A stretch of DNA of 64,000 bases. Source: Stigmatella erecta (GTDB taxonomy: Bacteria > Myxococcota > Myxococcia > Myxococcales > Myxococcaceae). Under the pieces are notes generated by a model that saw only the letters and a program-made list of their open reading frames with translations, did not search any database and was not told the DNA's origin. Each line of letters opens with the position of its first letter. The stretch's first letter is position 1. The stretch is taken from NCBI RefSeq assembly GCF_900111745.1, contig NZ_FOIJ01000010.1, forward strand, positions 1 through 64,000. The letters are read 5' to 3'. The position numbers and the translations under genes are program-made. Shown here in pieces: positions 42,426 through 61,417 of the stretch.

Positions 42426-44267
42426 CTACATCATTGAAGCGGCCGCATCGATATATCCCTCGGCGGCCAGGGCCTCCAGGCGCGAGAAATACGCGGTGCG
42501 GGCCTCCGCGTCCGTGTCGAACCAGAGTTTTTGCTGGCGCGAGGCGCCCTGGCGGGGACCCCACTCCACCGCCACCACTTTCCCATCCAGTGAGACGCGG
42601 TACACCTGCTCCTGGCCAGAGGGCTCGCGCCGCACGTAGGCGCGCGTCTCCGCGGTGATGCGCTGGCGGCCCTCGGGCGTCTGACGCAGCGCTTCCTGCT
42701 CGGCGCGCTGCCGCGTCTGGGCCAGCCGCAGCGCCAGCATGTGCTCGCACGGGCCCTCGCGCAGCCCCGAGCGCCGGAAGTGGGGGCAGCCGCAGCTGGC
42801 CTCCTTCACGCGCCCCTCCAGGTCCAGGGTGAAGGAGGGGAAGAAGCTGCGGACGGCTTCCCGGTCCACCACCTCGCCCTGGATGCGGGTGCCCTCGCCC
42901 ACCACCTCGTGGACCTTCGTCACCTTCACCTCGCCCGCGCCCGGCCCGCCGTCGCCGAGCAGCCGGTGCGCCCGGGCCTCGCGCTCGTTGCCGTAGCGCA
43001 GGGTGGCCTCGTCCACCGGCGTGGGCATCAGCTCGCGCGGCCGGTACGTCTCCTGGGCGATGTCATAGAGGATGCGCCCCCGGAGGCATTCGAGCTGCAG
43101 CGCCGCGCGCACCGCGTCCTTCGGGGCCCCGGCCTGCGCCGCGAGCGTCTCGAAGGACAGGGGGCCCTCGGTGCGCAGCCGCTGGCGCAGCCGTTCCGGC
43201 AGCCCGTCCGGCACCGCGCGCGGCATCAGCGCGTCGAAGGCGGCGGCGCTGGACCAGCCGCTCTCCGTCCACCCGGTGAGGGCCAGCGTCAGCGTGGCCT
43301 GCCCGAGGTCCACCGCCCAGAACACGGGCAGCCCCGGGCCCAGGAGCCGCACCCGGATGTTCTGAGCGTGGGGCAGCAGCCGGGCCAGGGCCGCCAGGCG
43401 CTGCCGGCCGAAGGTGCGCACCACCGCGGGCACCGTGCCCGTGTACACCGAGGCGTGGCACTCCAGCACCAGCTCCCACGGCTCGATGATGAGCCGGGGC
43501 GCGGCGCCGGGGATGAGCTCGAAGCGCAGCGCGCGCGGGGCCGTCTTGGCCTTCCGGGTGCGCAGGGCGAACAGCAGGTTGTACAGGTCGATGGGCGCCA
43601 GCGTGCAGGTGCTCGCCGGGAGCGTGGCCGCCGACTGCACCTGGAGAAAGCCGCGCAGCCACGCGTGGGGGACCTCCACGTTCCGGGGCGCCCGGGCCTC
43701 CTGGGCCGGCAGCGCCACGTGCGCCTCCAGGGAGAGCGGCACGTAGGTGCGCAGCCGGTCCACCTTGGCCATCAGGTCCTTGGGCACGTCCAGGAAGGTG
43801 GAGCCGTGCGCGGCCTCGCGGCCCTCGAACAGGGCGCTGTCGAAGGCCAGGCGCGCGTAGGCGCTCTCGTCGCGGGAAAACACCTCGAGGGAGACCTGGT
43901 CCGGATCCACCGTGAGGACAGGGTCTAGCACCGTGTCCTTCTGCTCCTCGGTCTGGAGCGAGGCGTCCAGGAAGGCCTTCTGCGCCTCCCAGATCTGGGC
44001 GGTGGCGCGCTTGCCCTGCTTCATCAGGTAGGCCAGGTAGGCGGTGCGGTCCCGGCCCCGGTAGCGCAAGTCGCTGGCGAGGATGCCCAGGGTGGCGGCC
44101 AGCGCATCCCGGAAGAGGGCGGGCTCGCGGACCTTGCCGCGCACGCCCACGGTGCCGCGCGAGCCCTCCAGGGCCAGCAGCACGCGCGAGGCCTCCGGGC
44201 GGGTGTCCACGTCACTCGTGGTGGCGTAGCGCAGCTCGACGGGGTGGCGGGGGGTGGCGGGCGTCAT
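42426..44267 (-). CDS. SWIM zinc-finger protein with C-terminal WGR-like domain
   Basis: A 613-residue protein. A SWIM finger (CxCxnCxH) lies near residues 490-511: SCGCPHF...GPCEHML. The C-terminal 65 residues look like a WGR domain (VYRVSLDGKVVAVEWGP...LWFDTDAEARTAYFSRLEAL), often found with DNA- or ADP-ribose-related proteins. The N-terminal 450 residues are unassigned but well coded. The ATG (44265-44267) overlaps the stop of the giant HEAT gene (ATGA) and has AAGGAG upstream, so the two are co-translated. The retron RNA begins only about 70 nt after its stop, on the same strand. Function unknown. Confidence 0.8.
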   Translation of the reverse strand: MTPATPRHPVELRYATTSDVDTRPEASRVLLALEGSRGTVGVRGKVREPALFRDALAATLGILASDLRYRGRDRTAYLAYLMKQGKRATAQIWEAQKAFLDASLQTEEQKDTVLDPVLTVDPDQVSLEVFSRDESAYARLAFDSALFEGREAAHGSTFLDVPKDLMAKVDRLRTYVPLSLEAHVALPAQEARAPRNVEVPHAWLRGFLQVQSAATLPASTCTLAPIDLYNLLFALRTRKAKTAPRALRFELIPGAAPRLIIEPWELVLECHASVYTGTVPAVVRTFGRQRLAALARLLPHAQNIRVRLLGPGLPVFWAVDLGQATLTLALTGWTESGWSSAAAFDALMPRAVPDGLPERLRQRLRTEGPLSFETLAAQAGAPKDAVRAALQLECLRGRILYDIAQETYRPRELMPTPVDEATLRYGNEREARAHRLLGDGGPGAGEVKVTKVHEVVGEGTRIQGEVVDREAVRSFFPSFTLDLEGRVKEASCGCPHFRRSGLREGPCEHMLALRLAQTRQRAEQEALRQTPEGRQRITAETRAYVRREPSGQEQVYRVSLDGKVVAVEWGPRQGASRQQKLWFDTDAEARTAYFSRLEALAAEGYIDAAASMM

Positions 44268-47200
44268 GAGGGGGCTCCTTCCTTGCGGGTACGGGCCAGG
44301 GCCCGGCGGGCCCGTTGGTGGGCGCGCCAGGCCGCCTTGCGGAGGGCCTCCGGCTGCGCCTTGTCGAAGGCGAGGCCCTTGAGCAGCTCCGTGGCGGCTT
44401 CATCGCCCATGCGGCCCAGGGCGGCCAGGGCATCTTGCTTCACCTGCGCGGTGCCGCTTCCGGTCGCCAGCGGGCGCAGCGGCTCCCACTGGTGGGCCGC
44501 GAGCAGCGCGGGCAGCGCGGCCCGCCGTCCTTCGGAGGTTGAAAGGGGCTCGGGCGCGCGCAGCCCCGCGGCCAGGGGGCCCACGGCCACCGGATCGAAC
44601 GGCTTCACCGCCAGCGCCCAGTCCGTGCGCTCCGGGGCGAGCCGGGCCAGCGAGGCGGCGGCGGCGGAGCGCACCCGCGCGTCGGCATCCGTCAGCGCGG
44701 TGCGCAGGGCCTCGGCGGCCGAGGCGCGCTCCTTCGCGGGAGCTCCCTCCGCCGTGCCCAGCACGCCCAGGGCGCGCGCGGCCTCCTGGCGGACCTCGGC
44801 CGGGGCGGCGGCCTCGCCCCCCTTCAGGACGGCGTGGGCCCCGGTGGCCAGCGTCGCGGTGCCCAGCCGGGCGCCCGCCCAGAGCAGCCGCTGCCAGGCG
44901 CTGGCGAGCGGGGGCCGTTTCCCGCTGGGGGCCGCGGCCCACTCGGTGGCGGTGCGCCGCTCGGCCGCGGCCAGCGCCTCGTGCAGGGTGGCCAGGGTGG
45001 CCGGGGGCAGGGGGGCGCGGGGCTCGCCGGTCCACGTGCCGATGACCTGGGCGGCCTCCTCGCGGGCCTGGGGCTCCGCGTGGGCGAGCAGCGTGGCCAG
45101 CGCCGGCACGGGCAGGCCGCCGCGCCGGGCGATGCCCCGGCGGATGCGCTGCCGCAGCGCCTCGTTCCTCAGCGTGGCCAGGTGGGGCACGAGCTGGGCG
45201 GGCTCGGCCTCGTCCGCCAGGTACGTGGCGGCGGGCTGGGAGATGTCCGGAAAGCGGCTCGTCACCGCGAGGAACTCCACCCGCACCCGGTCCTTCGGGA
45301 AGAGGACATCGAGCGCCTTGCGGGCCTCGAGCCGCAGCGGGGGCTCGGGGGCCTCCAGCACCTGGGCCAGGGTGGACTCGGCCTCGGGCGCCCCCAGCGT
45401 GCCCAGCTCGGTGGCGGCGGTGAGGCGCACCGGCAGCCCCGTGGTGTCATCGGTGAGCAGGGCCTCCAGCTTCGCCCGCGAGCGCTCGCCGCCGATGAAG
45501 CGCAGGCCGCGCACGCCCGCCTGTTGCTGCTCGAGGCTGCCCGCCTCCAGCGCGGCGGCCTCCACCTTCTCCTCGATGCGCTTGCGGTCCTCGCCCTCGG
45601 GCAGCTTCGCGGCGAGCCGGCCCAGGCCCTCCACGGCGGCCACCACCATGGTGGGCTCGGCGGGGGCCTCCGGGGTGCCGCCGCCGGCCACCGTCTCCAG
45701 CTCGGCCAGGGCGCGCGCATCCCCCAGGCTGCCGAGCGCCAGCAGGGCGCGCTCGCGCTCCCCCGGCTCGCCGGCCCGCGCGTACAGCAGCAGGGGGCGC
45801 AGCGCGCTGGGCAGCCCCTTGGCGGCGACGGCCTCGGCCGCGGGCAGCATCAGCTCGCGGGCCCCGGCGCGCAGCACCTCCTCGATGGGCTCCACCTTCG
45901 CGCCCTGGTGCACGACGCGCGCGGAGTAGTGCGCCACCGCCTCGCGGCGCACCGCCACGTCCCGGTCCGGAAAGAGGCTCAGGAGCAGCGCGTCCTGGCC
46001 CACGCCGGCCCCGGGCACCAGCTCCCGGGGAACCGCCTGGCGCACGGCCACATCCGCCGAGCGGGCCGCGGCGCGCAGGAAGCGCACCGCCAGCGCCATG
46101 TCCCGCAGGTTCATATCGCGCGTGCCCTGGGCATTGGGCTTCACGTTCCGGTCCGCCACCTCCAGGGCGGCGGTGAGGCAGGCCAGCCGCACGCTGGGGG
46201 CCTCGTCGTCCAGCACCTGCTGGGCCAGCACCTCCACCGCCTCCGGAAGGAGGGTGCGCCCCAGGGCCTTCACGAGCGCGGTCCGCTCGTCCGGGCCCGG
46301 CGCGGCGCGAAGCCGGCCGGCGAGGGCGGCCACGGCGGCCGGGGTGGCGAGCCGCGTGAGCGCCGTCAGGGCCCGCGCCGCGGCGCCCGCGTTCTCCGAG
46401 CGCAGGAAGGTGCTCAGCACCTCCACGGCCCGGTCATCCTTGCGCCAGGCGAGCAGCTCGGCGGCGCGCATGCGCAGGTCCTCGTGCTCGCTGGCCATGG
46501 CGCGGCCCAGCGCCTCGGTGACGCGGGCATCGTTGGCCCCGGCCAGCCGCTCGATGACCCCCACGCGCAGATCCGCGTGCTCGCTGGAGAGCGCGGCCAG
46601 CAGGGGCTCCAGGCTGCCCGGGGGGCTCAGCCGCTCCAGCAGCTCGAAGGCGTACCGGCGCACCTCGGGCAGCGGCGAGTTGAGCGCGGCGGTGATGCGC
46701 GGCCGGGCCGTCTCCCCGCGCGTGGCCAGGGCATCCAGCGCGGCCCGGGCCACGTCCTGGGCGAGCGAGGCCAGGGCGAGCGCCAGCGGCTCCTCGGAGC
46801 CCGCGGGGTACAGCTCCTGGAGCCCCGCGAGCGCCGCCTTGCGCACGAGCTGGTGCGGGTCCTCCAGGGCGCGCAGCAGCGCGGCCACGGCGGCGGGCTG
46901 GCCCGCGACGCCCTCCTGGGTGAGCTTCACCACGCGGTCCACGGCATCCCGCCGCACGCGGTGGCCCTCGTCGCCCTCGGAGGACACCTGGCGCAGCAGG
47001 CCCACGTAGGCCCCGAAGGCGAGCCGGCGCAGGTGCTGCCGCTCCGCGGAGGCGAGCGCGGCGGGCTCCTTGCCGGCCACCGTGCCGTTGGAGAAGAGGC
47101 GGCGCAGCCAGTGCTTCGCGGGCTTGTCCGTGGCGGGCCCGGGGCGGGGCGCCGTCTCCGGCTTCCAGGGCGCATCCAGCGAGTGCAGCTGGGCCACCTT

Positions 47201-50200
47201 CTGGGCCTCGCGGAAGTACTCCACGGGCTTGTGGCGGAGGTTGAGCACCTGCGCGGCCGCGTAGCGCTGCTCGGAGACGTCGCTGGCGAGCGCCTCGGCG
47301 AGCTTCACCATGCGCCGGGCGCGCTCCTCCTCGGCGGGCCACTCCTTCATGTCCCCGGCCTTCTCTGGCCGGGGCGGCATCAGCGCCTCCACGAGGTGGG
47401 CGAGGAACGCCTCGGGCTCGGCGCGCAGCTCCAGCGCGCGCGCGGCGGCATAGCGCACCTCGGCCCGCGTGCTGGACAGGGCGCTGGTGAGCAGGTCCGG
47501 TGGCTCGCCCCGGCGCGAGGCGCGCAAGTCCCGGGCGAGGATGATGGCGAACACCCGCTCCTGCACGTCCCGGTGGGCATCCTCCAGGCCGTGGAGCATG
47601 CCGCCCTCGCCCGAGGCCCCCAGCGCGGCGAAGGAGAGCAGCGCCCCCAGCCGCACGGGCAGGTGCTCGTGGCGCAGCGTGCCGGTGAGCACGGGCAGGG
47701 CACGCACGTCCCCGAGGCGCGCGAGGCCGTCGGCGGCCCAGGAGCGCACCGCCACCATCGCGTGGCCCAGCGCGTCCAGCAGCGCGCCCTCGTCTCCCCG
47801 GCGGCTGGCGGTGGCGAGGCCCCGGGCGCCCTGCTCCTTCACGTCGTTCTGCTCGTGCTGGAGCAGGGACGTATAGAAGGAGAGGAGCCGGCGCGAGCCC
47901 AGCGTGGCCAGGGCGCTCGCGGCGCGGGCGCGCAGCGGGAAGAGGAACTGGGGCGGGTAGCGTTGCTCCAGATCCTTGCTGGTGATGAGCGAGCGCATGG
48001 GCTCGATGATGTCCTCGGCGCGCCGCTCGGCGAGCAGCTCCGCGGCGCGGACCTGCAAGGGCAGCGACGCCGAGAGGAGCCCCGCGAGCAGCGGCCCGTT
48101 CTCGTCCTTCACGAGCGTGTTCAGCGTCTCCAGGGCCTGGAGGTGGACGGCGGGCGCCTCGTCCTGGATGAGCTTGAGCAGCGGGGAGCGCAGGGGCGCG
48201 GCGGGGGCCTCTCCGGCCTCCTTCGCCGCGAGGGCACGCAGCGGGATGTGGGCGGTGTCGAGCGCGGCGAGGTGAGGCTCGGGCTGGGGCTTGCCCACGC
48301 GCTTCACCCACGCCTCGTAGGCGGCGGTGGCCACGCCCTCGTCCCGGTCCTTCACCGCCTGCTTCAGCCGGTCGAGCGCCCAGGCCTGCTCGCTCTGGTG
48401 CGAGAGCACCTCCACGGCGCGCCGGCGCAGGTCCGGGAAGCGCCCGGCCAGGGCCCGGTCCAGGGCCTTCTGCGGGGCCTTCTCGTTCCAGGCCCAGAGG
48501 GTGCGGAACGCCTCGTCCCGCACCTTGCTGGACTCATCCTCCAGCGCGTTGCCCAGCAGCGTCTCGGCCTCTTCGGCGCGCGTGGCGGTGCCCAGCTCCA
48601 CCAGCCGGGCGAGGCCGCGCACGCGCACGTCCTCGAAGGAGGAGCGCAGCGCGGCCTGCGTGCTGGCCAGGGGCGTCTCCACGTCCAGGGCCACCACGGC
48701 CTCGAAGGCGGTGGCGCGCACGTCCGCGTCCTCGTCGTCGAGCATCCACACGAGCCGCTCGCGGACCCGGGGGTCCTTCAGCACCTGGAGCGCGAAGGCG
48801 GCGAACCGGCGGATGGAGGCCTGGGGCTCGCGGGAGAGCTGGAGCAGGGCCCCCAGCGCGCGCGTGTCCCCGAGGTAGGCGAGCGCCTGCGCCCCGAGTG
48901 CCGCGGTGTCCGGGGTGCGGCAGGCCATGGCGGCCAGCAGCGGCTCCAGGTCCGCCTCGGTGAGGGCCTCGCCCGCCTTGCCCACGCCGGGAAGCCGCGC
49001 CCGGGCCGCCTGGGCCTCGGCGTTGGAGACGGGCTTGGGGTCCGGAGGCTGGGGCGAGGGCGTCTGGGGCAGGCGGGCCAGCCGGCGGCCCAGGTCGAGC
49101 CCCGAGCGGACGAAGTCCGGATCCAGCTTCTCCAGCGCGTGGGCCAGGGCGCGGCGCTCCATCACCCTCAGGAGGAAGGCGTTGTGGCGCACGTCCGCGT
49201 CCATGTCGTCCAGGGCGCGGGCCACCAGGGGCTGGAGCGCGGCGGAGCCGAGCTGCCCGGTCCACGCGGCGCGCAGCAGCACCTCCGTCCGGAGCGCCGG
49301 AGGGCCCCGCTCGAAGGCCATCCGCAGGGGCTCGGGGCTGCCCGCGGGGGAGGCCCCGGTGAGGGCCTCCAGCGCGGCGAGCCCCACGGAGGCGTCCGCG
49401 TCCGCCAGCTTCCCGGCGATGAGGCCGGGCACCAGGGGGGAGGTGCCCGCCAGGGCGGAGAGCCGCCACAGGCCCGCCACGCGCGTGTCCGCGTGGCGCG
49501 AGCCGAGCGCCGCGCGCGGGGCGGCCAGGGGGGACTCCTCCAGGGTGGCGAGGGCCGCCAGCGCGGCGGCGCGCACGGAGGGGGCCTCGTCATCGAGCCG
49601 CTCGCGCAGCTTGGGGCGGGCGCCGGTCCGGCCCTTCGCGGCCAGCTCGGAGGCGGCCAGGGCGCGCACCGAGGCGTCCCGGTCCGAGGCGAGCACCTGG
49701 AGCGCGAAGCTCAGCGCCTCGGGCTCCTCCAGCGCGGCGGCCTCGCGGACGGCGGCCTCGCGGCGGGGGCGGCCCTCGTTCAGGGCCTCGGCGAGCACCT
49801 CGAAGCCGTGGAGGTACTCCTGCTGCTCGTCCGAGGGCGTGCCATCGGGGGCGAGGGTGACGCGGGCCACGTGGCGCGAGTCCCCGCCGGTGAAGACGTG
49901 GCCGAGGGCCGTTTTCGCCTGGCGGGGGTTGGCGGGGGGCGCGAAGGCGAGCGCCTGCAGCGGCTTGCTCCCGAAGTCGAGCGTGCGGGGTTTGCGGCGC
50001 TCGTCCAGGCGCCACACCTTCACCTGCCCGTCGGCCCCGGCGGTCCAGAAGCGGTCCTTGGCCTCCTGGCCGGGCTCGGCTGGGGGCGTGGGCGGGAAGA
50101 GCAGGGCGAGCACGGGCCCAGCGTGGCCGGAGTCCTTGTCGCCGCGCACCTCGAACTCCACGGCGCCGGCGAGGTACCAGATGCGGATGCGGCCATCGTC

Positions 50201-50785
50201 CCCGGCGGACACGAGCCGCCCATCGCGCGGGGTGAAGGCCAGGGCGCGCACGGGGCCCTCGTGGCCGGGCATGTCGCGCTGGGCGCGGGAGGCGAGGGTG
50301 AAGGCGCGGACGACGGCGTCATCGCCCGCGCAGGCGACGGTGGCGTTGCCCGGGGCCACGGCGACGGCGCGCAGGGGCTGGGGGGAGGCTTGCCACGATT
50401 GGAGCGCCTCGCCGGAGCTCAGGGCCCAGGCGCGCAGGGCGCCATCCATGCCCACGGTGTAGAGCCGCTGGCCATTGAGGCCAAAGGCGAGCGCCGTGCA
50501 GCCGCCGGGGTGGGCCGAGGGCAGCTCCCGCTCCAGCGTGCCGTCGCCCAGGGCGCCCACGCGCACGGTGCCGTCCGCGCCGGCGGCGGCCCAGCGTTCC
50601 CCGGCCAGCGCCAGGGCGAGCACCGCGGAGGGCAGCTCCACGCTCCACAGCACCTTGTTGGCGGTGGTGTCGTACGCGGTGAGCTTGCTGGCGGAGGCCG
50701 CGCGAGCGCCCCCGGCGAGGAGCACCCGGCCGTTGGCCGCCAGTGCCCGTACCTTCTCGAAATTGCCGATGGCGAGCTGGGCCAT
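44264..50785 (-). CDS. Giant WD40-HEAT repeat protein
   Basis: A 2173-residue protein from ATG 50785 (MAQLAIGNFEKVRALAANG). Residues 1 to about 330 are WD40 repeats (DGTVRVGAL, DGALRAWAL, DGRIRIWYL, DGQVKVWRL). From about 340 to the end there are several dozen HEAT/PBS-lyase-type repeats of about 30-40 residues (e.g. DEAPSVRAAALAALATL, DADVRATAFEAVVALD, DADARVRSAAAASLARL). No enzymatic motif or signal peptide; it is a scaffold-like cytoplasmic protein. It overlaps the SWIM-WGR gene by 4 nt and reads toward the retron. ATG 50821 is an alternative start. Confidence 0.85.
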   Translation of the reverse strand: MAQLAIGNFEKVRALAANGRVLLAGGARAASASKLTAYDTTANKVLWSVELPSAVLALALAGERWAAAGADGTVRVGALGDGTLERELPSAHPGGCTALAFGLNGQRLYTVGMDGALRAWALSSGEALQSWQASPQPLRAVAVAPGNATVACAGDDAVVRAFTLASRAQRDMPGHEGPVRALAFTPRDGRLVSAGDDGRIRIWYLAGAVEFEVRGDKDSGHAGPVLALLFPPTPPAEPGQEAKDRFWTAGADGQVKVWRLDERRKPRTLDFGSKPLQALAFAPPANPRQAKTALGHVFTGGDSRHVARVTLAPDGTPSDEQQEYLHGFEVLAEALNEGRPRREAAVREAAALEEPEALSFALQVLASDRDASVRALAASELAAKGRTGARPKLRERLDDEAPSVRAAALAALATLEESPLAAPRAALGSRHADTRVAGLWRLSALAGTSPLVPGLIAGKLADADASVGLAALEALTGASPAGSPEPLRMAFERGPPALRTEVLLRAAWTGQLGSAALQPLVARALDDMDADVRHNAFLLRVMERRALAHALEKLDPDFVRSGLDLGRRLARLPQTPSPQPPDPKPVSNAEAQAARARLPGVGKAGEALTEADLEPLLAAMACRTPDTAALGAQALAYLGDTRALGALLQLSREPQASIRRFAAFALQVLKDPRVRERLVWMLDDEDADVRATAFEAVVALDVETPLASTQAALRSSFEDVRVRGLARLVELGTATRAEEAETLLGNALEDESSKVRDEAFRTLWAWNEKAPQKALDRALAGRFPDLRRRAVEVLSHQSEQAWALDRLKQAVKDRDEGVATAAYEAWVKRVGKPQPEPHLAALDTAHIPLRALAAKEAGEAPAAPLRSPLLKLIQDEAPAVHLQALETLNTLVKDENGPLLAGLLSASLPLQVRAAELLAERRAEDIIEPMRSLITSKDLEQRYPPQFLFPLRARAASALATLGSRRLLSFYTSLLQHEQNDVKEQGARGLATASRRGDEGALLDALGHAMVAVRSWAADGLARLGDVRALPVLTGTLRHEHLPVRLGALLSFAALGASGEGGMLHGLEDAHRDVQERVFAIILARDLRASRRGEPPDLLTSALSSTRAEVRYAAARALELRAEPEAFLAHLVEALMPPRPEKAGDMKEWPAEEERARRMVKLAEALASDVSEQRYAAAQVLNLRHKPVEYFREAQKVAQLHSLDAPWKPETAPRPGPATDKPAKHWLRRLFSNGTVAGKEPAALASAERQHLRRLAFGAYVGLLRQVSSEGDEGHRVRRDAVDRVVKLTQEGVAGQPAAVAALLRALEDPHQLVRKAALAGLQELYPAGSEEPLALALASLAQDVARAALDALATRGETARPRITAALNSPLPEVRRYAFELLERLSPPGSLEPLLAALSSEHADLRVGVIERLAGANDARVTEALGRAMASEHEDLRMRAAELLAWRKDDRAVEVLSTFLRSENAGAAARALTALTRLATPAAVAALAGRLRAAPGPDERTALVKALGRTLLPEAVEVLAQQVLDDEAPSVRLACLTAALEVADRNVKPNAQGTRDMNLRDMALAVRFLRAAARSADVAVRQAVPRELVPGAGVGQDALLLSLFPDRDVAVRREAVAHYSARVVHQGAKVEPIEEVLRAGARELMLPAAEAVAAKGLPSALRPLLLYARAGEPGERERALLALGSLGDARALAELETVAGGGTPEAPAEPTMVVAAVEGLGRLAAKLPEGEDRKRIEEKVEAAALEAGSLEQQQAGVRGLRFIGGERSRAKLEALLTDDTTGLPVRLTAATELGTLGAPEAESTLAQVLEAPEPPLRLEARKALDVLFPKDRVRVEFLAVTSRFPDISQPAATYLADEAEPAQLVPHLATLRNEALRQRIRRGIARRGGLPVPALATLLAHAEPQAREEAAQVIGTWTGEPRAPLPPATLATLHEALAAAERRTATEWAAAPSGKRPPLASAWQRLLWAGARLGTATLATGAHAVLKGGEAAAPAEVRQEAARALGVLGTAEGAPAKERASAAEALRTALTDADARVRSAAAASLARLAPERTDWALAVKPFDPVAVGPLAAGLRAPEPLSTSEGRRAALPALLAAHQWEPLRPLATGSGTAQVKQDALAALGRMGDEAATELLKGLAFDKAQPEALRKAAWRAHQRARRALARTRKEGAPS

Positions 50786-51191
50786 GTCGCTCTGAGACCT
50801 TCCGGATCCGGCATGGGGCACTCAGGACGCAGCACCCCGGGTGGCCCATGGCGCACGGTGGCGAGCCATGGAGCTGTGGGTCTAGCACATTCTTCCCGGG
50901 CAACGGGGGGCCAAGAAGCGGCGCCGCTGGGAGCGGCTCCCTCCAACGTGATGGCCGTTGATGGGCGGACCTTGAGCGCGTGTCTTCGTGCGGCCATATC
51001 TGGCCGGAATCCTTGGGTTTAGGAGAAGCGCCAGAGTGGCATGCATCCGTGCGGAGCACCGTGGTGCCCTTCTCCTCGTCGGTGCAGAGCGTCGAAGAGC
51101 AGGCCGAGCAGACCCCCGCGGATCCACGCACTGCCCCGCGGTTCAGTGAATTCGCTCACAGCTCCCGTGGGGCCACTCCGGCCTGTGGCAC
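50786..51191. other. Intergenic stretch between divergent genes
   Basis: About 400 bp between the WD40-HEAT gene (minus) and the RsbW/STAS chimera (plus). It must contain the promoter of the HEAT-SWIM pair. Short frames on both strands show no family features; I see no convincing sigma-70 boxes or repeats. Confidence 0.4.
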
Positions 51192-51269
51192 ATGGGGCCG
51201 TCTAAAGGATTTCTGATATTCACACGAGGCATCGCCGCTGCCGGGACGTTCGTTCTGGCGCTCCCGCGC

Positions 51270-51632
51270 ATGGGGCTGAAAGATGCGCCCATCAAACGAA
51301 CACTCACCCACCGCTTGGAGGGCTTGACCTTTGCCCAAAGCGCAGCGGAGCGCCTCTGCGAGAGCGTAGGCGCGGGCGGTGACGCGTTCCATGTTGGGCT
51401 GGCCGTGCGCGAGGCGGCCGTCAACGCCCTCCAGCACGGCAACCGGTTCGATATCGATTCCTCGGGAATTGGCGAGCTGGTCAGTTCCTATACCCGCGTC
51501 ACATCGCGGGGCGGGAAGCTCAAGCTGATCAACCTGCCTCCCAGGGTTCAAGACGTCCTCACCATCACCCAGCTCATCACGGTGTTCGAGGTGTACGACA
51601 CCGAGGCTGATGCGCTGGCGAGCTTCTCCTGA
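51270..51632 (+). pseudogene. Chimeric RsbW-like/STAS ORF (deletion fusion)
   Basis: A 120-residue frame (ATG 51270; ATG 51192 is possible). Residues up to about 60 match the N-box helix of an RsbW-type anti-sigma kinase ([20 protein letters not shown]). Directly after, [18 protein letters not shown]...[10 protein letters not shown]...[11 protein letters not shown] matches the C-terminal two thirds of a SpoIIAA-type STAS anti-anti-sigma factor, including the DSSG phosphorylation-site serine. The ATP-lid motifs (DxGxGF, GxGL) of the kinase and the first strands of STAS are missing. The simplest reading is an in-frame deletion joining two neighbouring regulatory genes, leaving a non-functional or altered product. 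Confidence 0.65.
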
Positions 51633-51708
51633 CGGCTTGAGAAAGGGTGCTTCCACGCTACCGTCTGGCTCACCTCCGCGAGCCAGGCGGTATTCGTCTG
51701 GGGGTGCG

Positions 51709-53193
51709 TCAGTAATAGAAGTCCATGGCGTTGATGTCGTAATCGATCGAACCCATGTCGAAGAAGAAGCTCTCGTTGGCTGTCCCAACGAAGTTGATGG
51801 ACTCGAACGCCGCCGTATTGGCCGCAATCTTCAAGTCATGGTTGACGTGAATGTCTGCGATGCGGACAAAGTCCGCCAGGTTCGGGACGAGCGTTTGATT
51901 GCCGAACATGCCTGTTGTGTTGACGAGGACGATCGGCGTTTGTCCATTGGGCGTGATGGTATACATCCACGATTGTCCAGGAGGTGGATTGGCCGCCATC
52001 CACTCCGCGATCGTTTTGATTGCGAAATCGTAAGTCAGCTTCTGCCACTGCTCGAACGAGATTTGCCGGTTGAGATACTGGGTCACAAGTGGCGAATTGA
52101 AGCGAGTGATCGCACTGAAACACGCGACCGCACCGTTCGCGAGCGTTTTCGAGTAAGCCTTGTCTCTCGTACGCCCGAGCAGCGCCATCATGAATGAGTA
52201 AGTCGAACCTAGAATTTGCTGGTTCGTGCTGTCGATTCCGGTGAATCCCCTCTTCCAGTGATCGGAGTACGGCTTGTTGAATGGGGTCGACAACGAATAT
52301 CGGAGCTGCACCTCGACCAATTGCGGTACGCTGAGCGTGTGTGCAATCTCGATGCGCATATCCTCGAAGGTCATCGAGCCACTATTCAGCCGCCCGCGCC
52401 AGTACGAGATTTCGCCTGCGTCCGGTGATCTCCAGAACATCTTTTGGTAAGCGGCGTTGATCGCCGTATCCTGGTTCAGCGGATGGTTCGGATAGCTGGA
52501 CCGGATCGCGTTCATGATGTCCTGGTAGATCAGTCCTCCGCCCTGCAACCCGTTTCTCCAACCCTCTCGCTCGTGAGAAAAGGGTTCCCGGCCAAAGCCG
52601 TCGAAGTACGCGGCTGTGATGGCGATGTCTTGATTCTCTAGGTGATTGGGAAAGCTGGACCGGATCGCATTGATGATGTCGGTGTAAATCAAGGTTCCAC
52701 CCTGGAGGCCATTCATCCAACCGGCCACTTCCCCTTCAAACGGCGACCGCCCAAATCCCTGCTTGTATGCAGCGTAAATCGCGAATTCTTGAGCGCTGGG
52801 GTGATTCGGGAATGAGCCTTTGATGGCGTTGATGATGTCGTTGTAAATCAAGCCGCCGCCTTGAAGACCATTGCGCCAATTGACTCTTTCCCACGGCTCG
52901 GGAGCACGTCCAAAGCCGCGAGCGTAAGCGTTGGAGATCGCCACGTCTTGATTGTGCTGGTGATTCGGGAACGAAGCCTTGATCGCAGCGATGATCGTGT
53001 CGTAATTCGCAGACCCGTCCGCGATGCGGCCACCCCAGTAATTGAGCTCGCCTTGATCTGGAGTTCTGCCAAAACCATTCTCGTAAGCACTCAGGACAGT
53101 GCTCGCTGGGTCTGCGCTGGCGGCCAACGGAGCCATGAACGTCATGGCTGCTGCAAATAAATGAAAAAGACGCGAGTGAATCCGGGCGGTCAT
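51709..53193 (-). CDS. Secreted repeat protein, DUF4214-like, lower GC
   Basis: A 494-residue exported protein from ATG 53193 with a signal peptide ending ASADPAS. Residues about 30-275 hold five tandem repeats of about 48 residues with consensus AAYxxGFGRxPxxxExxxWxNGLQGGxLIYxDIINAIxxSFPNH, resembling the DUF4214 unit of S-layer-associated proteins. The C-terminal 220 residues are unassigned. Codon use (AT-ending codons, clearly lower GC than neighbours) suggests acquisition from another lineage. It stands alone, between the chimeric STAS ORF and a dispersed repeat. Confidence 0.75.
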   Translation of the reverse strand: MTARIHSRLFHLFAAAMTFMAPLAASADPASTVLSAYENGFGRTPDQGELNYWGGRIADGSANYDTIIAAIKASFPNHQHNQDVAISNAYARGFGRAPEPWERVNWRNGLQGGGLIYNDIINAIKGSFPNHPSAQEFAIYAAYKQGFGRSPFEGEVAGWMNGLQGGTLIYTDIINAIRSSFPNHLENQDIAITAAYFDGFGREPFSHEREGWRNGLQGGGLIYQDIMNAIRSSYPNHPLNQDTAINAAYQKMFWRSPDAGEISYWRGRLNSGSMTFEDMRIEIAHTLSVPQLVEVQLRYSLSTPFNKPYSDHWKRGFTGIDSTNQQILGSTYSFMMALLGRTRDKAYSKTLANGAVACFSAITRFNSPLVTQYLNRQISFEQWQKLTYDFAIKTIAEWMAANPPPGQSWMYTITPNGQTPIVLVNTTGMFGNQTLVPNLADFVRIADIHVNHDLKIAANTAAFESINFVGTANESFFFDMGSIDYDINAMDFYY

Positions 53194-53408
53194 GCTGGCC
53201 TTTCGTTGCTTCTCGAATGGAGATGAAGTTTGAAGTTGAAGGATAGGACGGAGAAGAGTCTGGGAGTAAAATTACAGCATGGGTGTAGAGGGGTGGCTCG
53301 CGGGCTGTTCGCTGGGCCAGAGGCCTGGGCCTGCCCACGGCAGGTGCGAGGCTGGCCCCAGCGCAGGGGCCACCCCAGAACTCTGGGTTTTGAGTCAGCA
53401 GCAGCAGG
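53194..53408. other. Non-coding region before dispersed repeat A
   Basis: About 215 bp upstream of the repeat protein gene (minus strand). It should hold that gene's promoter. No RNA gene or coding remnant recognised. Confidence 0.35.
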
Positions 53409-53503
53409 GGCCCGTCGCCTGCCGCCTCTTCCTGGGAGGGCGGCCTGAGTAGGCGTGTTGCCTCCAGGACTCCGGGGTGGGCACACCGACGTGGCACTCG
53501 GCC
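53409..53503. repeat. Dispersed repeat A, copy 1
   Basis: About 95 bp sharing roughly 85% identity with 61211-61306 in the same orientation. Blocks such as GCCCGTCGCCTGCCGCCTC, GGGAGGGCGGC and GTGGCACTCG are conserved. On the minus strand both copies encode a similar peptide (PRRCAHP..LE.TRLL.PPS..EAAGDGP), suggesting a decayed coding segment or a mobile repeat. It lies about 170 bp upstream of the SitA-like gene. Confidence 0.75.
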
Positions 53504-53676
53504 CTCCAGCACTCGTCAGCAGCCCTCCTTTGCCTCTTTGTTCTCGCCCGTTCCCTTCAACACTGCCCCTCTCCTTCTTATGCGCGACTGGCGTGTGGTC
53601 ATCGCAGGAGGCGCATCACCTGGCGTCCCTGTAATCTCGGCTCGTGCTCCAGAGGGCGGGGGCCAGGAGGCGCCAC

Positions 53677-55017
53677 ATGCGACGATGGACGATTCTGCCG
53701 CTGGTCGCGTTCATCGTGGGGTGTGGTGGCGGCACGGCGAAGTTCGTCCGCTTGGAGACAGGGCAGGGCGAGCCCATCGTCCACGTCCTGCGCCGCGATG
53801 GGAAGCCGGTGGAGGTGAGCGACAAGGAGTTCAAGCAGGCCGTGGCGGAACACATTCCCTCCGTTCCTCCAGTGGATCGACCCCTGGAGCACGCTCGGCA
53901 GTGGTTCGGAGTCTCTGCGCGAAGTGGCTGGTTCCGGTACGAGGGCAGGAGCCAGCGTCTCATGGCCTCGGAGCCGGGGAGCCATGAGAATCTTCGCCTG
54001 TTGCCAGCCGATGAGGAACTGAAGCGCCGTTACCTGCTGTGGTGCGAGCGGACGTGGGGACCTGGGGATTGCCTGCGCCTGCTGGTGGACAGGCCCTTTC
54101 TCGATGGGGATGGCAAGTACGCACTGGCCATGGCGATCGCCCATGGCAAGGTGCTGGGAGCCATGAAGGAAGAACTCGGCCAACTGGTGAGCCCCCAGGC
54201 GGTGGTGGCCACAGTCGTCGGTGGCCTGACCCTGTATGCCGTCTTGCTGGCGTTGCCTGAGCCGGTCACCAAGGGGGTGGCGGCGCTGCTGACGCTGGGG
54301 GCCATGGCGTACCTGGGCTGGGACACGGTGTGGCGGCTGATCGATGGGTGGCTGGTGTTGATGAAGGAGGTGGATCGGGCCACCACCTTCGACGGCATCT
54401 ACGTCTCCGGAGAGAAGTTCGGGGGGGTGATGGGGGCGAAGGCGGCACGAGCCTTTGTCATGCTGGCGACGGTGGCCATGGGGAACACGGTGGCGGGGAT
54501 GGCGGCGGCGCTGCCCCAGTTGCCGGGGGCTGGGCAGGCCGCAGTGGTGGCCGAGACACAACTGAGCATCCGTTTCGCGGCCCCTGCGCTGGCTCAGGTG
54601 GAATCAGTCGCCCTCAGTGCCGAGGGAGTCACCATCGCGCTTGCCCCCCCTGCAGTCGCCATGACAGCGCGGGACACAGGCGGTGCTGGTGGGACATCCA
54701 AGGCTGGGTTCAGGGCCTTCAAATCCATGGGGGGATTCAAGAGCGCGCTGGGTTCTGCTGGCGAGGGCAAGAACTGGCACCACATTGTCGAGCAGACACG
54801 GAGTAACGTCGAACGGTTCGGTCCTGAGGCCCTGCACAACACCGAAAACGTGATTGCGGTTGAGGCTGACGTCCACATGAAGATCAGTGCGTATTACTCC
54901 TCGAAGCAGAAGTTCACGGGTGGCATGGTCGTGCGTGAATGGCTGCGCACGAAATCATACGCGGAGCAAAGGGAGTTTGGACTGCAGACCCTGCGGCAAT
55001 TCGGAGTCATTCCATGA
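53677..55017 (+). CDS. sitA: SitA-family polymorphic toxin lipoprotein
   Basis: A 446-residue lipoprotein from ATG 53677 with AGGAGG upstream. Signal peptide and lipobox VAFIVGC. The long N-terminal and middle part (LETGQGEPIVHVLRRDGKPVEVSD, LLPADEELKRRYLLWCERT, two hydrophobic helices near 185-225) matches the myxobacterial SitA5-like carrier, which is passed between kin cells by TraA/B outer-membrane exchange. The C-terminal 90 residues form a histidine-rich nuclease-like toxin domain (NWHHIVEQTRSNVERFG..ALHNTENVI, VHMKIS.YYSSK). Its TGA overlaps the ATG of a DUF2019 gene, the expected immunity partner. Confidence 0.8.
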   Translation: MRRWTILPLVAFIVGCGGGTAKFVRLETGQGEPIVHVLRRDGKPVEVSDKEFKQAVAEHIPSVPPVDRPLEHARQWFGVSARSGWFRYEGRSQRLMASEPGSHENLRLLPADEELKRRYLLWCERTWGPGDCLRLLVDRPFLDGDGKYALAMAIAHGKVLGAMKEELGQLVSPQAVVATVVGGLTLYAVLLALPEPVTKGVAALLTLGAMAYLGWDTVWRLIDGWLVLMKEVDRATTFDGIYVSGEKFGGVMGAKAARAFVMLATVAMGNTVAGMAAALPQLPGAGQAAVVAETQLSIRFAAPALAQVESVALSAEGVTIALAPPAVAMTARDTGGAGGTSKAGFRAFKSMGGFKSALGSAGEGKNWHHIVEQTRSNVERFGPEALHNTENVIAVEADVHMKISAYYSSKQKFTGGMVVREWLRTKSYAEQREFGLQTLRQFGVIP

Positions 55018-55385
55018 AGGCAGCGCAGGTGCAGGGGCTCACCGTGGACCAACTCGTGGAGAAGTACCGGGAGCTATCTGCAAGGCACGGGCGTGCAATC
55101 GAGGCGGGCAATCACAAGGCTGCCAATCGAGACTTCGGCGTGATTGTGGCAATCAACAAGGAACTCCGGTCACGCGGAATCGAAGCACACCGGGAGTTAT
55201 TCAAGCTGCTGAATGATCCTGAGCCAGGCACTCGCTGCTGGGCTGCTACGGATGTGCTTGAGTTTGCGCCACGAGAGGGTGAGCAGGTTCTTGCCGAACT
55301 TGCAAAGGTGCCGAGGAGCCTGGTGGGGCTCACTGCGGAGATGACACTGCGCCAATGGAAGGCTGGGGAGTACAAGCCTGGGTGA
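55014..55385 (+). CDS. DUF2019 protein, probable SitI immunity protein
   Basis: A 123-residue cytoplasmic protein starting at ATG 55014 inside the SitA-like stop (ATGA overlap). It fits DUF2019: TVDQLVEKYRELSARHGRAIEAGNHKAANRDF, a helical HEAT-like part with LLNDPEPGTRCWAATDVLEFAPREGEQVL and the end MTLRQWKAGEY. DUF2019 proteins are frequent immunity partners of polymorphic toxins. Tight coupling to the toxin gene supports this role; binding has not been shown here. Confidence 0.8.
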   Translation: MKAAQVQGLTVDQLVEKYRELSARHGRAIEAGNHKAANRDFGVIVAINKELRSRGIEAHRELFKLLNDPEPGTRCWAATDVLEFAPREGEQVLAELAKVPRSLVGLTAEMTLRQWKAGEYKPG

Positions 55386-55516
55386 TGCCCTACGACGGTG
55401 CCGGTGGGGACGGACCTGTCCCTGGCGCCGTGCTAGTTTACGGTTCCGGCCCGCGCGGCCGGGACGTGCGCTTGGGGCCCAATGCGCTATTCAAGGACCT
55501 CGCCGAGGAGGACTCG

Positions 55517-57166
55517 TTGATCCAGCAGACACTCATCATCGACGGCTTCAACCTGACGGCCGGACAGGTCCTGGCCTGCGCGCGCGACCGCGATTGCGCC
55601 ATCCAGGTCGGCTTGGCCCAGTCCTCGCGCGATGCGCTCAAGGAGAGCCGCGACTACATCGAGTCGACCTGGATGCACGACGGCGCGCCGATGATGTACA
55701 GCTTCAATACCGGCGTCGGCCTGCTGAAGGACACGCGCGTCCAAGTGGCGCACATCGAGCTGTTCCAGGCGCAGCTGATCCGGGCCCATGCCGCCGGCAT
55801 GGGCGAGCCGTTTTCGGAAGAAGTCTCGCGCGCCACCATGCTGCTGCGCGCCAATGCGTTCGCCAGCAATTACTCCGCGCCGCGCGTGGAGGTGATTGAA
55901 CGCCTGCTCGCCTTCATCAACGCCGGCATCCATCCGCTCATGCCGCAGAAAGGCTCCGTGGGCGCCTCGGGCGACCTGGCGCCGCTGGCCTATCTCTCCG
56001 GCGCGCTCGCTGGCTTCGAGGAAGCCGAGGTCCTGTACAAAGGCCGGCGCATGTCCGCACCGGAAGCGATCCGGCAGGCGGGCATCGGTCCGGTGCGGTT
56101 CGAGCTGAAGGCCAAGGACGGCTCGGCCCTGATCAACGGCTGCACGGTCTCGCTGGCGGCCGCCTTGCTGGCGGCCGACGACGCACGCAAGCTGCTGCTC
56201 GACGCCTGCATCTCGCTGGGCCTGACGCTGGAGGCCATGCGCGCCGAGATGCTGGCGTTCGATGAGCGCATCCACAAGGCGCGTCCACACAAGGGCCAGC
56301 TCAAGACCGCCGCCATCGTGCGCAGGCTGATGGCGGGCTCCACCCGCGCCACGCACGCCGCGCGCGCCGTCCCGTTTCCCGGCGAGCTGCGCCGCCCGGA
56401 CACCGAGTACACGCCGCGCATCCAGGATGTCTACTCGCTGCGCTGCGCGCCGCAGGTCTACGGTCCGGTGTTCGACGCGCTCGACTACATCGACGGCATC
56501 CTGCACACCGAGATCAATTCGGCCACCGACAACCCGCTCATTTTCGGCAAGGACGGCGGCGGCTTCGAGATCATCTCGGGCGGCAATTTCCATGGCCAGT
56601 ACCTGGCGCAGGCGATGGACTTGCTGGCGATCGCGGTGGCCGATCTCGGCTCGATCTGCGAGCGCCGCCAGGCACGGCTGATCGACCCCACGCTGTCGTG
56701 GGGCCTGCCGCGCAACCTGATGACCGGGATCGCCGGCGTGAACACCGGCTATACGGTGGTCAGTTCCTCGATGAGCGCGCTGGTCATGGAGAACCGCACG
56801 CTGTGCACGCCGGCCAGCGTCGACAGCATTCCGGCCAAGGGCAACAGCGAGGATCACATCTCCAATTCGACCTGGTGCGCCCGCAAGGCCGCCACCGTGG
56901 TCGCCAACACCCGCTATATCGTCGGCGTCGAAATGCTGCTGGCGGCGCAGGCGCTGACGATGACCGGGCACCTGCTGCCGGGCTTGACGCTGGGCGCAGG
57001 CACGCAGGCGGCGTATGACGAGATCCGCCGGCGCATTCCGGCCAGCCTGGACGGCGACCGCTGGTACCACCACGACATCGCCGCCGCGCACGAGTTCGTG
57101 GCCAGCGGCGCGGTGCGCGCGGCCGTGGAAGAGACAGTCGGCAAGCTCGGCGACACCGCCGCCTAA
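55517..57166 (+). CDS. MIO-dependent aromatic amino acid ammonia-lyase or aminomutase
   Basis: A 549-residue enzyme. The MIO-forming triad Ala-Ser-Gly is at 150-152 (GSVGASGDLAPLAYLSG), the catalytic-type Tyr in MMYSFNTGVG (Tyr61). The substrate-site pair is Ala-His (RAHAAG, H91) where histidine lyases have Ser-His, and the conserved QEDH/NQD block reads NSEDHIS. It is therefore related to histidine ammonia-lyase but probably acts on a different amino acid, as a lyase or 2,3-aminomutase. TTG 55517 is chosen because GAGGAGG lies 5 nt upstream; frame upstream is poor. Codon use is unlike neighbours. The gene ends 1 bp before duplicated segment B. Confidence 0.82.
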   Translation: MIQQTLIIDGFNLTAGQVLACARDRDCAIQVGLAQSSRDALKESRDYIESTWMHDGAPMMYSFNTGVGLLKDTRVQVAHIELFQAQLIRAHAAGMGEPFSEEVSRATMLLRANAFASNYSAPRVEVIERLLAFINAGIHPLMPQKGSVGASGDLAPLAYLSGALAGFEEAEVLYKGRRMSAPEAIRQAGIGPVRFELKAKDGSALINGCTVSLAAALLAADDARKLLLDACISLGLTLEAMRAEMLAFDERIHKARPHKGQLKTAAIVRRLMAGSTRATHAARAVPFPGELRRPDTEYTPRIQDVYSLRCAPQVYGPVFDALDYIDGILHTEINSATDNPLIFGKDGGGFEIISGGNFHGQYLAQAMDLLAIAVADLGSICERRQARLIDPTLSWGLPRNLMTGIAGVNTGYTVVSSSMSALVMENRTLCTPASVDSIPAKGNSEDHISNSTWCARKAATVVANTRYIVGVEMLLAAQALTMTGHLLPGLTLGAGTQAAYDEIRRRIPASLDGDRWYHHDIAAAHEFVASGAVRAAVEETVGKLGDTAA

Positions 57167-57167
57167 A

Positions 57168-57465
57168 CCCCGTTACGCCGGTTTGACGGCGGCGAGCAGC
57201 AGGTAGCCCAGCTTGTCCGTGAAGATAGCGGCGATCTTCGGCCAGAGATCCAGCGTCATCGCGTGGAACTGCGCCCCGTAGGCCTCGCCGATCTGGTCCT
57301 GCTGCTGGACGATGAGCGTGTCGGTGCCCACCATCGACTTGCGGGTGTTGGGGGTGATGTCGAGCGACTCCTGGACGGTGAACCCCACGGACTCGACCAG
57401 CGGCGCGTAGTCCTGGAAGCGCAGCAGCGAGGCGATCATGAGCCCGCTGTACACCAGCATCCGCT
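57168..57465. repeat. Segmental duplication B, copy 1 (3' part of methyltransferase gene)
   Basis: 298 bp nearly identical (about 97%) to 63096-63383, in the same orientation. It starts one base after the MIO gene stop and covers the last third of the methyltransferase gene. The other copy has a 10-bp deletion. Confidence 0.9.
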
Positions 57466-58006
57466 CGTTTTCGGCCAAGGGGTGCGGCTCGGTCACATCG
57501 GTCAGCACCAGGGCGCCACCGGGCCGCAGCACCCGGAAGGCATGGCGGAGCACCTGCGTTCGATCCGGCATGTGGAGCAACGACTCGAACGCCCACACGG
57601 CATCGAAGGAGGCATCCGCGAAGGCAAGCTCCATCGCGTCGGCGCACTGGAACTGCACCTGGCCGGAGAGGCCGTGCTTGTGCGCCCGCGCGTTCGCCTG
57701 CTCGACCTGCTGGGCGCTGACGCTGATCCCCGTGACCGAGCAGCCCGTCGCCTGCGCCAGCCGGATGGCCGGCCACCCGGTTCCGCACCCGATGTCGAGC
57801 AACCGCTGCCCCGGGCCCACCCGCGCCCGCTGGATCATCATCTCCGTGAGCCGCTCCTGGGCTTCGGTGCCGGAGCTCGGATCGCCGGGGCTGGACCAGT
57901 AGCCCACGTGGATGCTGTCGCCCAGCAGGGTCGCGAGAAACGGCCCCATCTGGTCGTAGAAGCGGCCCACATCGGCGGGAGTCATCGGGGGTCTCGGGCT
58001 CGTCAT
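57173..58006 (-). CDS. SAM-dependent small-molecule methyltransferase
   Basis: A 277-residue class I methyltransferase from ATG 58006 with AAGGAG upstream. SAM motif I is RLLDIGCGTGWPA; later motifs are GISVSAQQVEQANARA, DAMELAFADASFDAVWAFESLLHMPD and VLRPGGALVLTDVTEP. The N-terminal helix (FYDQMGPFLATLLGDSIHVGYWSSP) places it with the RebM/sarcosine-dimethylglycine methyltransferase-like enzymes that act on natural products or small amines. It is convergent with the MIO gene (6 bp between stops). The last third is duplicated at 63096-63383. Substrate unknown. Confidence 0.85.
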   Translation of the reverse strand: MTSPRPPMTPADVGRFYDQMGPFLATLLGDSIHVGYWSSPGDPSSGTEAQERLTEMMIQRARVGPGQRLLDIGCGTGWPAIRLAQATGCSVTGISVSAQQVEQANARAHKHGLSGQVQFQCADAMELAFADASFDAVWAFESLLHMPDRTQVLRHAFRVLRPGGALVLTDVTEPHPLAENERMLVYSGLMIASLLRFQDYAPLVESVGFTVQESLDITPNTRKSMVGTDTLIVQQQDQIGEAYGAQFHAMTLDLWPKIAAIFTDKLGYLLLAAVKPA

Positions 58007-58113
58007 CGTCGCTCCTTGGAGGTGAAAGGGCCTAACACCTCCCCGGCTCGCGGGGCCACCAGGATTCCTGGTTTTTTACCCAGCGCCCCCAGGCCCTCCG
58101 CGGCCCGCGGACA

Positions 58114-60186
58114 TCACGCTTCCACGGGAAGGCACAGCGTGAACCGCGCCCCGGCGCCGAGCTCACTCTCCACGTCGAGCGTCCCGCCGTGGCGCTCGGC
58201 AATCTGACGGCTGATGTGCAAGCCGAGGCCGAGCCCGGTGATGCTCCGGCTGGCCACGGCGCGCTCGAAGCGCTGGAAGATGCGCTGAAGATCTCGCGGC
58301 GCAATCCCAGGGCCTTGGTCGCTGACCGAAAGCTCCACCCGGTCTCCGCGGAAGCCCACGCCGATGCGCACGGGCTTCCCCTCGCCGTACTTCAGGGCGT
58401 TGGCGAGGAGGTTGTCGAGCACCTGCCCCAGCCGGACCCGGTCCCCGTGGACCCGTGCATCGCCGGAGACCTCCACGGTGAGGGCGACGCCTGCGGACTG
58501 GAAGACCTCGCTCGTCTGATGCACCGTCTCGGTCACCAGCTCCCGGACCGACAGGGGCGCCATGTCCATGGTCAGCATCCCGGTGGCAATCCGTGACACG
58601 TCGAGCATGTCGTCGATGAGCCGCTCCACGCGCCGCAGCTGGCGAGCGGCCACCCCGAGGCGGGTGTTCAGCGCCTCGGCGGGGAGCCCGGCCGGGACCG
58701 GCTTCTGCAACGAGCGGCAGGCCAGCTCGAGCTGGAGCTTCAGCGAGGTGAGCGGCGTCTTGAGCTCGTGGGAGCAGATGCTGAGGAACTCGTCGCGAGC
58801 GGAGATCGCCTCGGTGGCGCGCGCATAGAGCCGCGAGTTCTCCACCGCCTGCGCGGCCTTCCCGGCGAGCTGCTTCGCGTAGGCGAAGTCCCGCTCCGTG
58901 TAGCTGCGCCGGGATGCGGCGAGGAGCAGGGACAGGACCCCGAGCACCCTGCCGCGCGCCACGAGCGGCACGCAGATCATCGAGTGCACCTCCGCCTCGA
59001 GGGTGGCCTGTGCATGCTCGCCGCCGAGGGCCCTCTGCCCGGTCTTCTCGCCCTCGAGGACCGGGAGGAGCAGGGGCCTCGCCTCGAAGAGGGCCCGGGC
59101 AGGAGGGTTCTCCGGACGGTCCCTGCGGATGGCGAAGCGGGCGGCCTGCGCCTTGACGGGCTCGTGCCGCGGGTCCGCGATGACGGCCTCCGCGCGGCGG
59201 ACCGAGCCGTCGTCCTCGAGCAGGTCGATGAGGCACTCGTCTCCGAGCGTGGGCACCGCGAGCCGAGCCAGCGCGGAGAGCGTCTCGCGAGGGTCCAGCG
59301 ACGAGGCCAGGACGTCTCCTGCGTTGGAGATGAACCGGCGCATCTCCTCCTCTCGCCGCTGCTCACGGATGTCGCGCACGATGGCGACGTACCCGAAGAC
59401 CTCTCCGCCGGCCGAGCGCACCACCGAGGACAGGGTGCTCGTGAGGATGCGCTCACCGCTGCGGTGGCGGTAGCTCACCTCGCGAGCCTCCGCTCCGGGC
59501 GCGTGCTCCGGCTCCGTCCCCTCGGCCTCGAGAAGGGACACGGGCCGGCCGATGAGTTCATCCGGCGCATAGCCGAAGAGCGCGTTCGCCGCCGGGTTCA
59601 CGAGCACGATGATGCGCTCGGGAGAAGTCATGATCACCGGCTCGGGGAGGTGCTGGTAGACGGCCTCGAACTCCGCGCTCTTGCGGAGGATGAGCTCTTG
59701 CGCCTCTCGCCGCTCGGTGACGTCCTCGTGGATGAGGACCAGTTGCCGGACCTCGCCGGCCGCGTCCTTCACGGGATAGAGGTTCCCCTCGACCCACCGC
59801 GCACGCCCTGCGAGCCGAGGCTCGGCTGCGTCATAGCGGATGGCCGGGATGCGGCTGTTCTCGCCGCGCAGGGCCCGTTGGAAGTACGGGAGGATGCCGT
59901 GCTTCTCGAGTTGGGGGTCCGTCAGGACGTTGTAGCCGCGGAGGATGAAGTTCTCGACCACGTCCGGCGGGATGCGCCAGAGCGCGCGCCATGCCGCGTT
60001 GACCTGCAGCGTCCGGCCCGAGACGTCGAGCAGCTGGATGCTCAGCGGCGCGTTCTCGAAGAGGGTGCGCAGGCGCTCCTGCGTCTCGGCGAGCAGCTCC
60101 CCCTGGCTTTGGACCTTCGCTTCGAGCAACGCGTTGAGCTGCTCGAGCTGAAGGACCGTCCGGCCGTGGCCGGCGTCGTCATGCAT
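58114..60186 (-). CDS. Hybrid PAS-PAS-GAF sensor histidine kinase
   Basis: A 690-residue cytoplasmic sensor kinase. A short coiled coil (about 10-45) precedes PAS1 (about 40-155, TLFENAPLSIQLLD...LVLIHEDVTER) and PAS2 (about 165-275, VYQHLPEPVIMTSPERI...VAIVRDIREQ), then a GAF domain (about 290-455, MICVPLVARGRVLGVLSL), HisKA (SHELKTPLTSL, phosphorylated His near 473) and HATPase_c (DNLLANALKYGEG, DQGPGIAP, GLGLGLHISRQIAERHGG). No receiver domain and no adjacent response regulator, so it is an orphan, as often in myxobacteria. ATG 60186 is chosen; GTG 60228 is possible. Confidence 0.9.
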   Translation of the reverse strand: MHDDAGHGRTVLQLEQLNALLEAKVQSQGELLAETQERLRTLFENAPLSIQLLDVSGRTLQVNAAWRALWRIPPDVVENFILRGYNVLTDPQLEKHGILPYFQRALRGENSRIPAIRYDAAEPRLAGRARWVEGNLYPVKDAAGEVRQLVLIHEDVTERREAQELILRKSAEFEAVYQHLPEPVIMTSPERIIVLVNPAANALFGYAPDELIGRPVSLLEAEGTEPEHAPGAEAREVSYRHRSGERILTSTLSSVVRSAGGEVFGYVAIVRDIREQRREEEMRRFISNAGDVLASSLDPRETLSALARLAVPTLGDECLIDLLEDDGSVRRAEAVIADPRHEPVKAQAARFAIRRDRPENPPARALFEARPLLLPVLEGEKTGQRALGGEHAQATLEAEVHSMICVPLVARGRVLGVLSLLLAASRRSYTERDFAYAKQLAGKAAQAVENSRLYARATEAISARDEFLSICSHELKTPLTSLKLQLELACRSLQKPVPAGLPAEALNTRLGVAARQLRRVERLIDDMLDVSRIATGMLTMDMAPLSVRELVTETVHQTSEVFQSAGVALTVEVSGDARVHGDRVRLGQVLDNLLANALKYGEGKPVRIGVGFRGDRVELSVSDQGPGIAPRDLQRIFQRFERAVASRSITGLGLGLHISRQIAERHGGTLDVESELGAGARFTLCLPVEA

Positions 60187-60386
60187 GAAGGCAGTCTCGT
60201 CTGTTGTGACTCCCGACGCATAGCGCACAAGCGGGCCTCGGCCTGGGGCGAACAGCCGGGAGGCCGATGACGGAAATCGAGGGATTTATGTCGTTTCGGA
60301 CACGCTCCCCGTCTGGGAGAGTCCGATCATGCCTCGCAGGCACACCGGAGCGCGGACGGCCGGATCCACGGCCGAAGGAGTTTCCC

Positions 60387-61010: not shown

Positions 61011-61210
61011 GCGGCAGGAGCCGCGCGTCACAATGCTGACGGCGGAACCCGGGCGAACATCGCTTCCGGCCAGGTCGTAACCTACATTCATTCATGTCAA
61101 TGTCGTGCGACCATCCCGGGCCGGTCCTAGGCGTGCGCAACTGAGTGACGCAGGTCATGCGCGATCCCGCCGGGGTGGTTTCGAAGGTGAACTTCATCGA
61201 CGACGGCGGT
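61011..61210. other. Non-coding region before repeat A copy 2
   Basis: About 200 bp following the HD gene. I see no gene, RNA or strong terminator. Confidence 0.35.
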
Positions 61211-61306: not shown

Positions 61307-61417
61307 TTGCCTCGCAGCCTGGGCGGCTCGCCGAAGTCCTGGCAAGCCTGCGCTCACCCAGCCAGGTGCTTCGTGTTGCAACTGTCTCGCCCCCAAACGA
61401 GGAAGGAGCTCCTGGGC

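Follow-up and report, generated by a model that had tools for sequence, protein, structure and literature searches.

The first 64,000 nucleotides of a Stigmatella erecta contig (NZ_FOIJ01000010.1), referred to here as the window, contain an open frame at 51270–51632 (plus strand, nearest ATG to stop, 120 residues) that joins the start of an RsbW-like serine kinase to the end of a STAS antagonist. The question raised by this locus is whether such a frame encodes a new regulator or is what remains of older genes. Of the two readings, a gene remnant is the better one. Specifically, the chimera is most likely a recent, ordinary pseudogene, left by a deletion within a partner-switch kinase–STAS pair.

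Residues 1–61 of the frame correspond to an RsbW-type kinase cut after the N-box helix, and the remainder corresponds to the latter part of a STAS antagonist, its second half. Residues 15–62 align with positions 4–52 of the 127 in the Pfam HATPase_c_2 profile (PF13581) at 21.5 bits, below the cut-off of 27.4, and residues 62–115 align with positions 53–106 of the 106 in the STAS profile (PF01740) at 36.8 bits, above the cut-off of 22.6. With RsbW/SpoIIAB-type kinases the chimera shares the domain from its start to a helix at residues 46–58, which we take to be the N-box of these enzymes, but it is devoid of everything past profile position 52; the absent positions 53–127 harbor the later ATP-binding elements and are complete in G038 and G036, two genomes of the same genus. 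With RsbV/SpoIIAA-type antagonists it shares the DSSG turn, at which its STAS part begins, and the whole second half of the domain, but profile positions 1–52 are absent, leaving the domain incomplete and without its full core sheet. Two NCBIfam STAS antagonist models also match the second half of the frame, each scoring under its cut-off. The Pfam cut-off alone would therefore label the chimera a STAS protein despite the loss of half of the domain. A preliminary description, made from the DNA letters and their translations, had read the frame as an in-frame chimera of the two families in which the N-box runs straight into DSSG with no kinase G-boxes; the profile searches confirm both points, as the two Pfam matches divide at residue 62 and the kinase match ends at position 52.

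Upstream, the same reading frame stays open as far as an ATG at 51192, and the GTG that is the likely start of the kinase in G036 and G038 aligns with a CTG in the window. Thus, the ATG at 51270 is merely the nearest usable start of the chimera. The kinase-derived part (51235–51452, plus strand), as delimited by the G036 and G038 matches and by Pfam, comprises a short stretch before the likely kinase start and the codons up to GNRFD. The STAS-derived part (51454–51645, plus strand), delimited in the same way, extends from DSSG through the stop codon and 13 bases beyond. The serine of the DSSG turn, retained in the chimera, presumably corresponds to Ser56 of RsbV. Phosphorylation of RsbV Ser56 by RsbW is described in a published account (PMC7340262).

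Both parents of the chimera are found intact in relatives. In G038, a complete kinase gene is followed by a complete STAS gene, with their stop and start codons overlapping as ATGA. In G036, the complete kinase and the complete STAS domain lie in one frame, of 322 residues from the first start, and in G077, another genome of the family, they also share one open frame, of 344. The view that the two families are normally encoded by separate, adjacent genes is therefore borne out by G038 but not by G036 and G077. Protein-level matches in G038 and G036 cover query residues 2–63 and 60–120 (54–120 in G036) with 70–80% identity and are spaced ~410–435 bases apart. At the DNA level, the window is 85% identical to G038 over 174 bases (51279–51452) and 87% over 192 bases (51454–51645); for G036, the identities are 81% over 218 bases (51235–51452) and 82% over 192 bases (51454–51645). 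These matches to intact relatives rule out a chance origin of the two halves.

The window is co-linear with both relatives except for one gap, such that it represents the G038 locus minus 446 bases and the G036 locus minus 441 bases; the chimera is truncated by these amounts when set against the intact homologues of its close relatives. The comparison supports the earlier proposal that adjacent partner-switch genes were fused by a deletion. By alignment and arithmetic, the join is a single base, the A at 51453 (plus strand), located between the two matches. The sequence at 51445–51461 is GGTTCGAT-A-TCGATTCC, with the break at 51452|51454, a few bases beyond the junction that had been placed near 51445–51450. 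The extra A may belong to the STAS part if ATC stood in the ancestral STAS gene at the position of GTC in the relatives. The motif TCGAT is found at each end of the missing sequence, and both copies are retained in the window. Thus, the event was not a simple loss between these repeats, and collapse of the repeat by the assembler appears unlikely.

A mechanism can be proposed on this basis. In the ancestor, complete genes for an RsbW-type kinase and a STAS antagonist would have stood in direct succession, kinase first, or would already have shared one frame; given the single frames of G036 and G077, it may have been either a two-gene operon or one fused gene. A deletion of ~440 bases would then have taken everything from just past the N-box helix of the kinase to the middle of the STAS domain, and the two coding halves would have been rejoined in frame by chance, an outcome expected in about 1 of 3 cases. 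That there was one single deletion, that it was recent, and that the product is nonfunctional are steps that we infer. With the ATP site and the STAS fold both incomplete, the product of the chimera, if made, would be expected to lack kinase activity and normal antagonist function.

The complete single frames have the same order as the chimera, kinase first and STAS second (loci L045 in G036 and L049 in G077), but with both domains complete, whereas the chimera retains, in 120 residues, about half of each. In the spoIIA and rsb operons, the gene order is the reverse. These complete kinase-first frames are a useful by-product of the comparison. Each may be a self-contained kinase–substrate protein.

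Relatives were searched at E 0.001 in two overlapping sets, with matches in 12 of 96 family genomes (the present one included) and in 19 of 195 phylum genomes. Among the matches read in these sets, none outside the present genome has the joined form, and the wide family of like chimeras that would contradict an origin by deletion was not encountered. Kinase and STAS are adjacent in seven of the 11 other family genomes (G038, G036, G059, G031, G077, G055, and G027); in the stretches examined, G005 and G002 have the STAS gene without this kinase, and G014 and G015 have the kinase alone. The phylum search contributed seven more genomes (G083, G134, G148, G126, G127, G129, and G187) in which the STAS domain has its own first half, with the match in G083 being weak and that in G126 flagged for one TGA inside. 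Fourteen further contig loci, a set that may omit records very near the genome of the window, comprise 13 near-complete STAS matches and a partial one (L043); this kinase was not detected in their stretches, some of which are short, at E 1e-3. Within the genus, three of seven genomes have the sequence, as the chimera in the present genome and as intact genes in G036 and G038. The other four (G037, G039, G040, and G041) gave no match to the chimera at E 0.001, such that G037, the nearest relative at this place, matches neither part.

Around the chimera, ~12.8 kb of the window (50890–63720) form a variable stretch that G036 and G038 lack at this place. This follows from the spacing of the flanks: window positions 50889 and 63777 (63721 for G036) are only ~220 bases apart in G038 and ~1,200 in G036. 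The conserved start region of a HEAT-repeat gene runs to window position 50889. G037 matches the window at 95.7% over 43303–50941 and again at 54905–55388, with 587 bases between these matches in G037 versus 3,963 in the window.

The intact pair of G036 and G038 is found elsewhere in the genome. A gene that matches a 985-codon frame lies on one side of it, and variable sequence (7 kb in G036 and 15 kb in G038) precedes it; downstream, it is followed by a shared block. The regions before the intact pair, L126 (G038:C1:9290500-9308500) and L127 (G036), contain repeated blocks with multiple matches to each other and constitute a variable region. On contig C18 of the present genome, the outer neighbours of this usual place are ~100 bases apart and the pair is absent; contig C17 of G037 follows C18 there, its neighbours also close together without the pair. 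At the old place, the match to G038 restarts 9 bases past the STAS stop, and the match of the window ends 13 bases past it. As the neighbours adjoin without the pair, it is missing from its usual place in both the present genome and G037, and a piece of it survives in the window. Movement by a named mobile element was considered and is not established.

The present assembly (47 contigs, 99.99% complete) was searched for an intact copy of the kinase or the STAS gene, and none was found, the chimera itself being the only match below E 0.01. Counting the chimera, seven places in the genome match the Pfam STAS profile at E 0.01; HATPase_c_2 matches number 89 and mostly fall within long open frames. 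At G000:C25:35844-38605, two of these STAS places are grouped with the two best-scoring HATPase_c_2 places. The genome therefore carries one or more further clusters of STAS and kinase domains, and the one on C25, by the search at E 0.01, is no copy of this pair.

The variable stretch around the chimera contains several broken pieces. Directly upstream is a gene remnant (50949–51116, plus strand) composed of two matches to G036 with ~380 bases missing between them: 50949–51052 is 87% identical to G036:C1:448651-448753, upstream of a small predicted gene, and 51047–51116 is 89% identical to G036:C1:449132-449201, in the late part of the same gene. Further on, 63096–63383 repeats 57168–57465 at 95%, the second copy being a truncated fragment of the methyltransferase gene located at 57173–58006. 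Other genes occupy the stretch as well. The chimera is adjoined by a DUF4214 protein gene (51709–53193, minus strand; 65 bits in Pfam), which contains a DNA repeat (67%) and has no match at the G037 place. A SitA5 family polymorphic toxin gene (53644–55017; NF050093, 326 bits over a cut-off of 160) is overlapped by a DUF2019 gene (54939–55385), possibly its immunity gene. In the stretch compared, G037 has the DUF2019 gene (96%) and no SitA5 toxin gene. The presence of the SitA5 family, together with the large genome, would fit a myxobacterium. The open frame of an aromatic amino acid lyase (55355–57166; 522 bits in Pfam, under the cut-off of every NCBIfam model listed) starts inside the end of the DUF2019 gene.

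The predicted fold of the chimera is poor. AlphaFold2 gave a mean pLDDT of 61, with the first 60 residues in blocks of 44–50 and the second half at 66–82, as compared with 92.9 for an intact STAS control (L030); the input of the chimera included eight STAS relatives and that of the control included the other seven, so that, with STAS rows only in the alignment of the chimera, the kinase half is not compared on equal terms. In the intact control, the STAS half that the chimera is missing contains three of the four strands. A scan of 50800–51800 yielded no promoter-like sites, but shuffled sequences gave just 0.1 on average, so that this absence carries no weight.

On the branch leading to the window, nine of 24 assignable base changes are non-synonymous and 15 synonymous (non-synonymous 5 of 13 in the kinase part and 4 of 11 in the STAS part), below the ~74% of a simple neutral expectation (P 0.0002, or P 0.005 if the neutral share is 65%). 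The branch does not differ from those of the relatives (non-synonymous/synonymous 6/9 in G038 and 12/14 in G036; Fisher P 0.79), and all three fall short of the neutral share. The low share of amino-acid changes indicates either that the deletion is recent or that the product is still constrained.

It is on this point that a pseudogene has to be weighed against a working small protein, in which the first strand and helices of the kinase, its dimer face, would carry a half-STAS domain with a phosphorylatable serine and act as a decoy for other kinases. The frame without stops and the low share of amino-acid changes count against a pseudogene and for such a protein, and the retained DSSG also favors the latter. 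PMC7340262 assigns the dimer face of RsbW to the alpha1 helix and beta1 strand, and the other STAS and HATPase_c_2 places in the genome, e.g., the C25 cluster, would offer possible targets. However, the joined form is present in no other genome read, both folds are incomplete and poorly predicted, the parent kinase was not found in the assembly, and the chimera adjoins other broken genes, making a working protein unlikely. The more specific proposal, that a one-step deletion made a new 120-residue regulator in which the dimer-forming start of the kinase and the half-STAS constitute a self-pairing decoy against partner-switch kinases, is highly improbable; positive support for a functional new regulator is limited to the intact frame and the branch counts.

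An assembly or sequencing error, by which ~440 bases were skipped in a strain that has both genes intact, would be in keeping with a draft of 47 contigs. Yet the join has no repeat that an assembler would collapse, the place is inside a contig of 325,690 bases, and the adjacent gene remnant shows an internal loss of its own, so that an error of this kind is very unlikely. That the window retains an ancient inherited chimera, older than the genus, is barely conceivable. No point in its support was found, the parts match complete genes within the genus, and their divergence from G038 (85% and 87%) resembles that of the shared neighbouring sequence (81–87%). An ancient chimera family was likewise rejected, as the joined form occurs in none of the other genomes read. 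The origin as a pseudogene, in contrast, is supported by the intact adjacent genes in G038, G036, and five more family genomes and the co-linearity with one gap; by the failure to find an intact copy in the assembly or the pair at its usual place; by the second truncated gene directly upstream and the truncated methyltransferase repeat further on; and by the poor predicted fold relative to the intact control.

A literature search for chimeric genes formed by deletion found nothing, although we do not suggest that fusions of this kind are new to the literature. Together with the window, G036 and G038 provide a clear before-and-after pair. As a remnant, the chimera matters little beyond annotation; if it were functional, it would be a regulator born by a single deletion.
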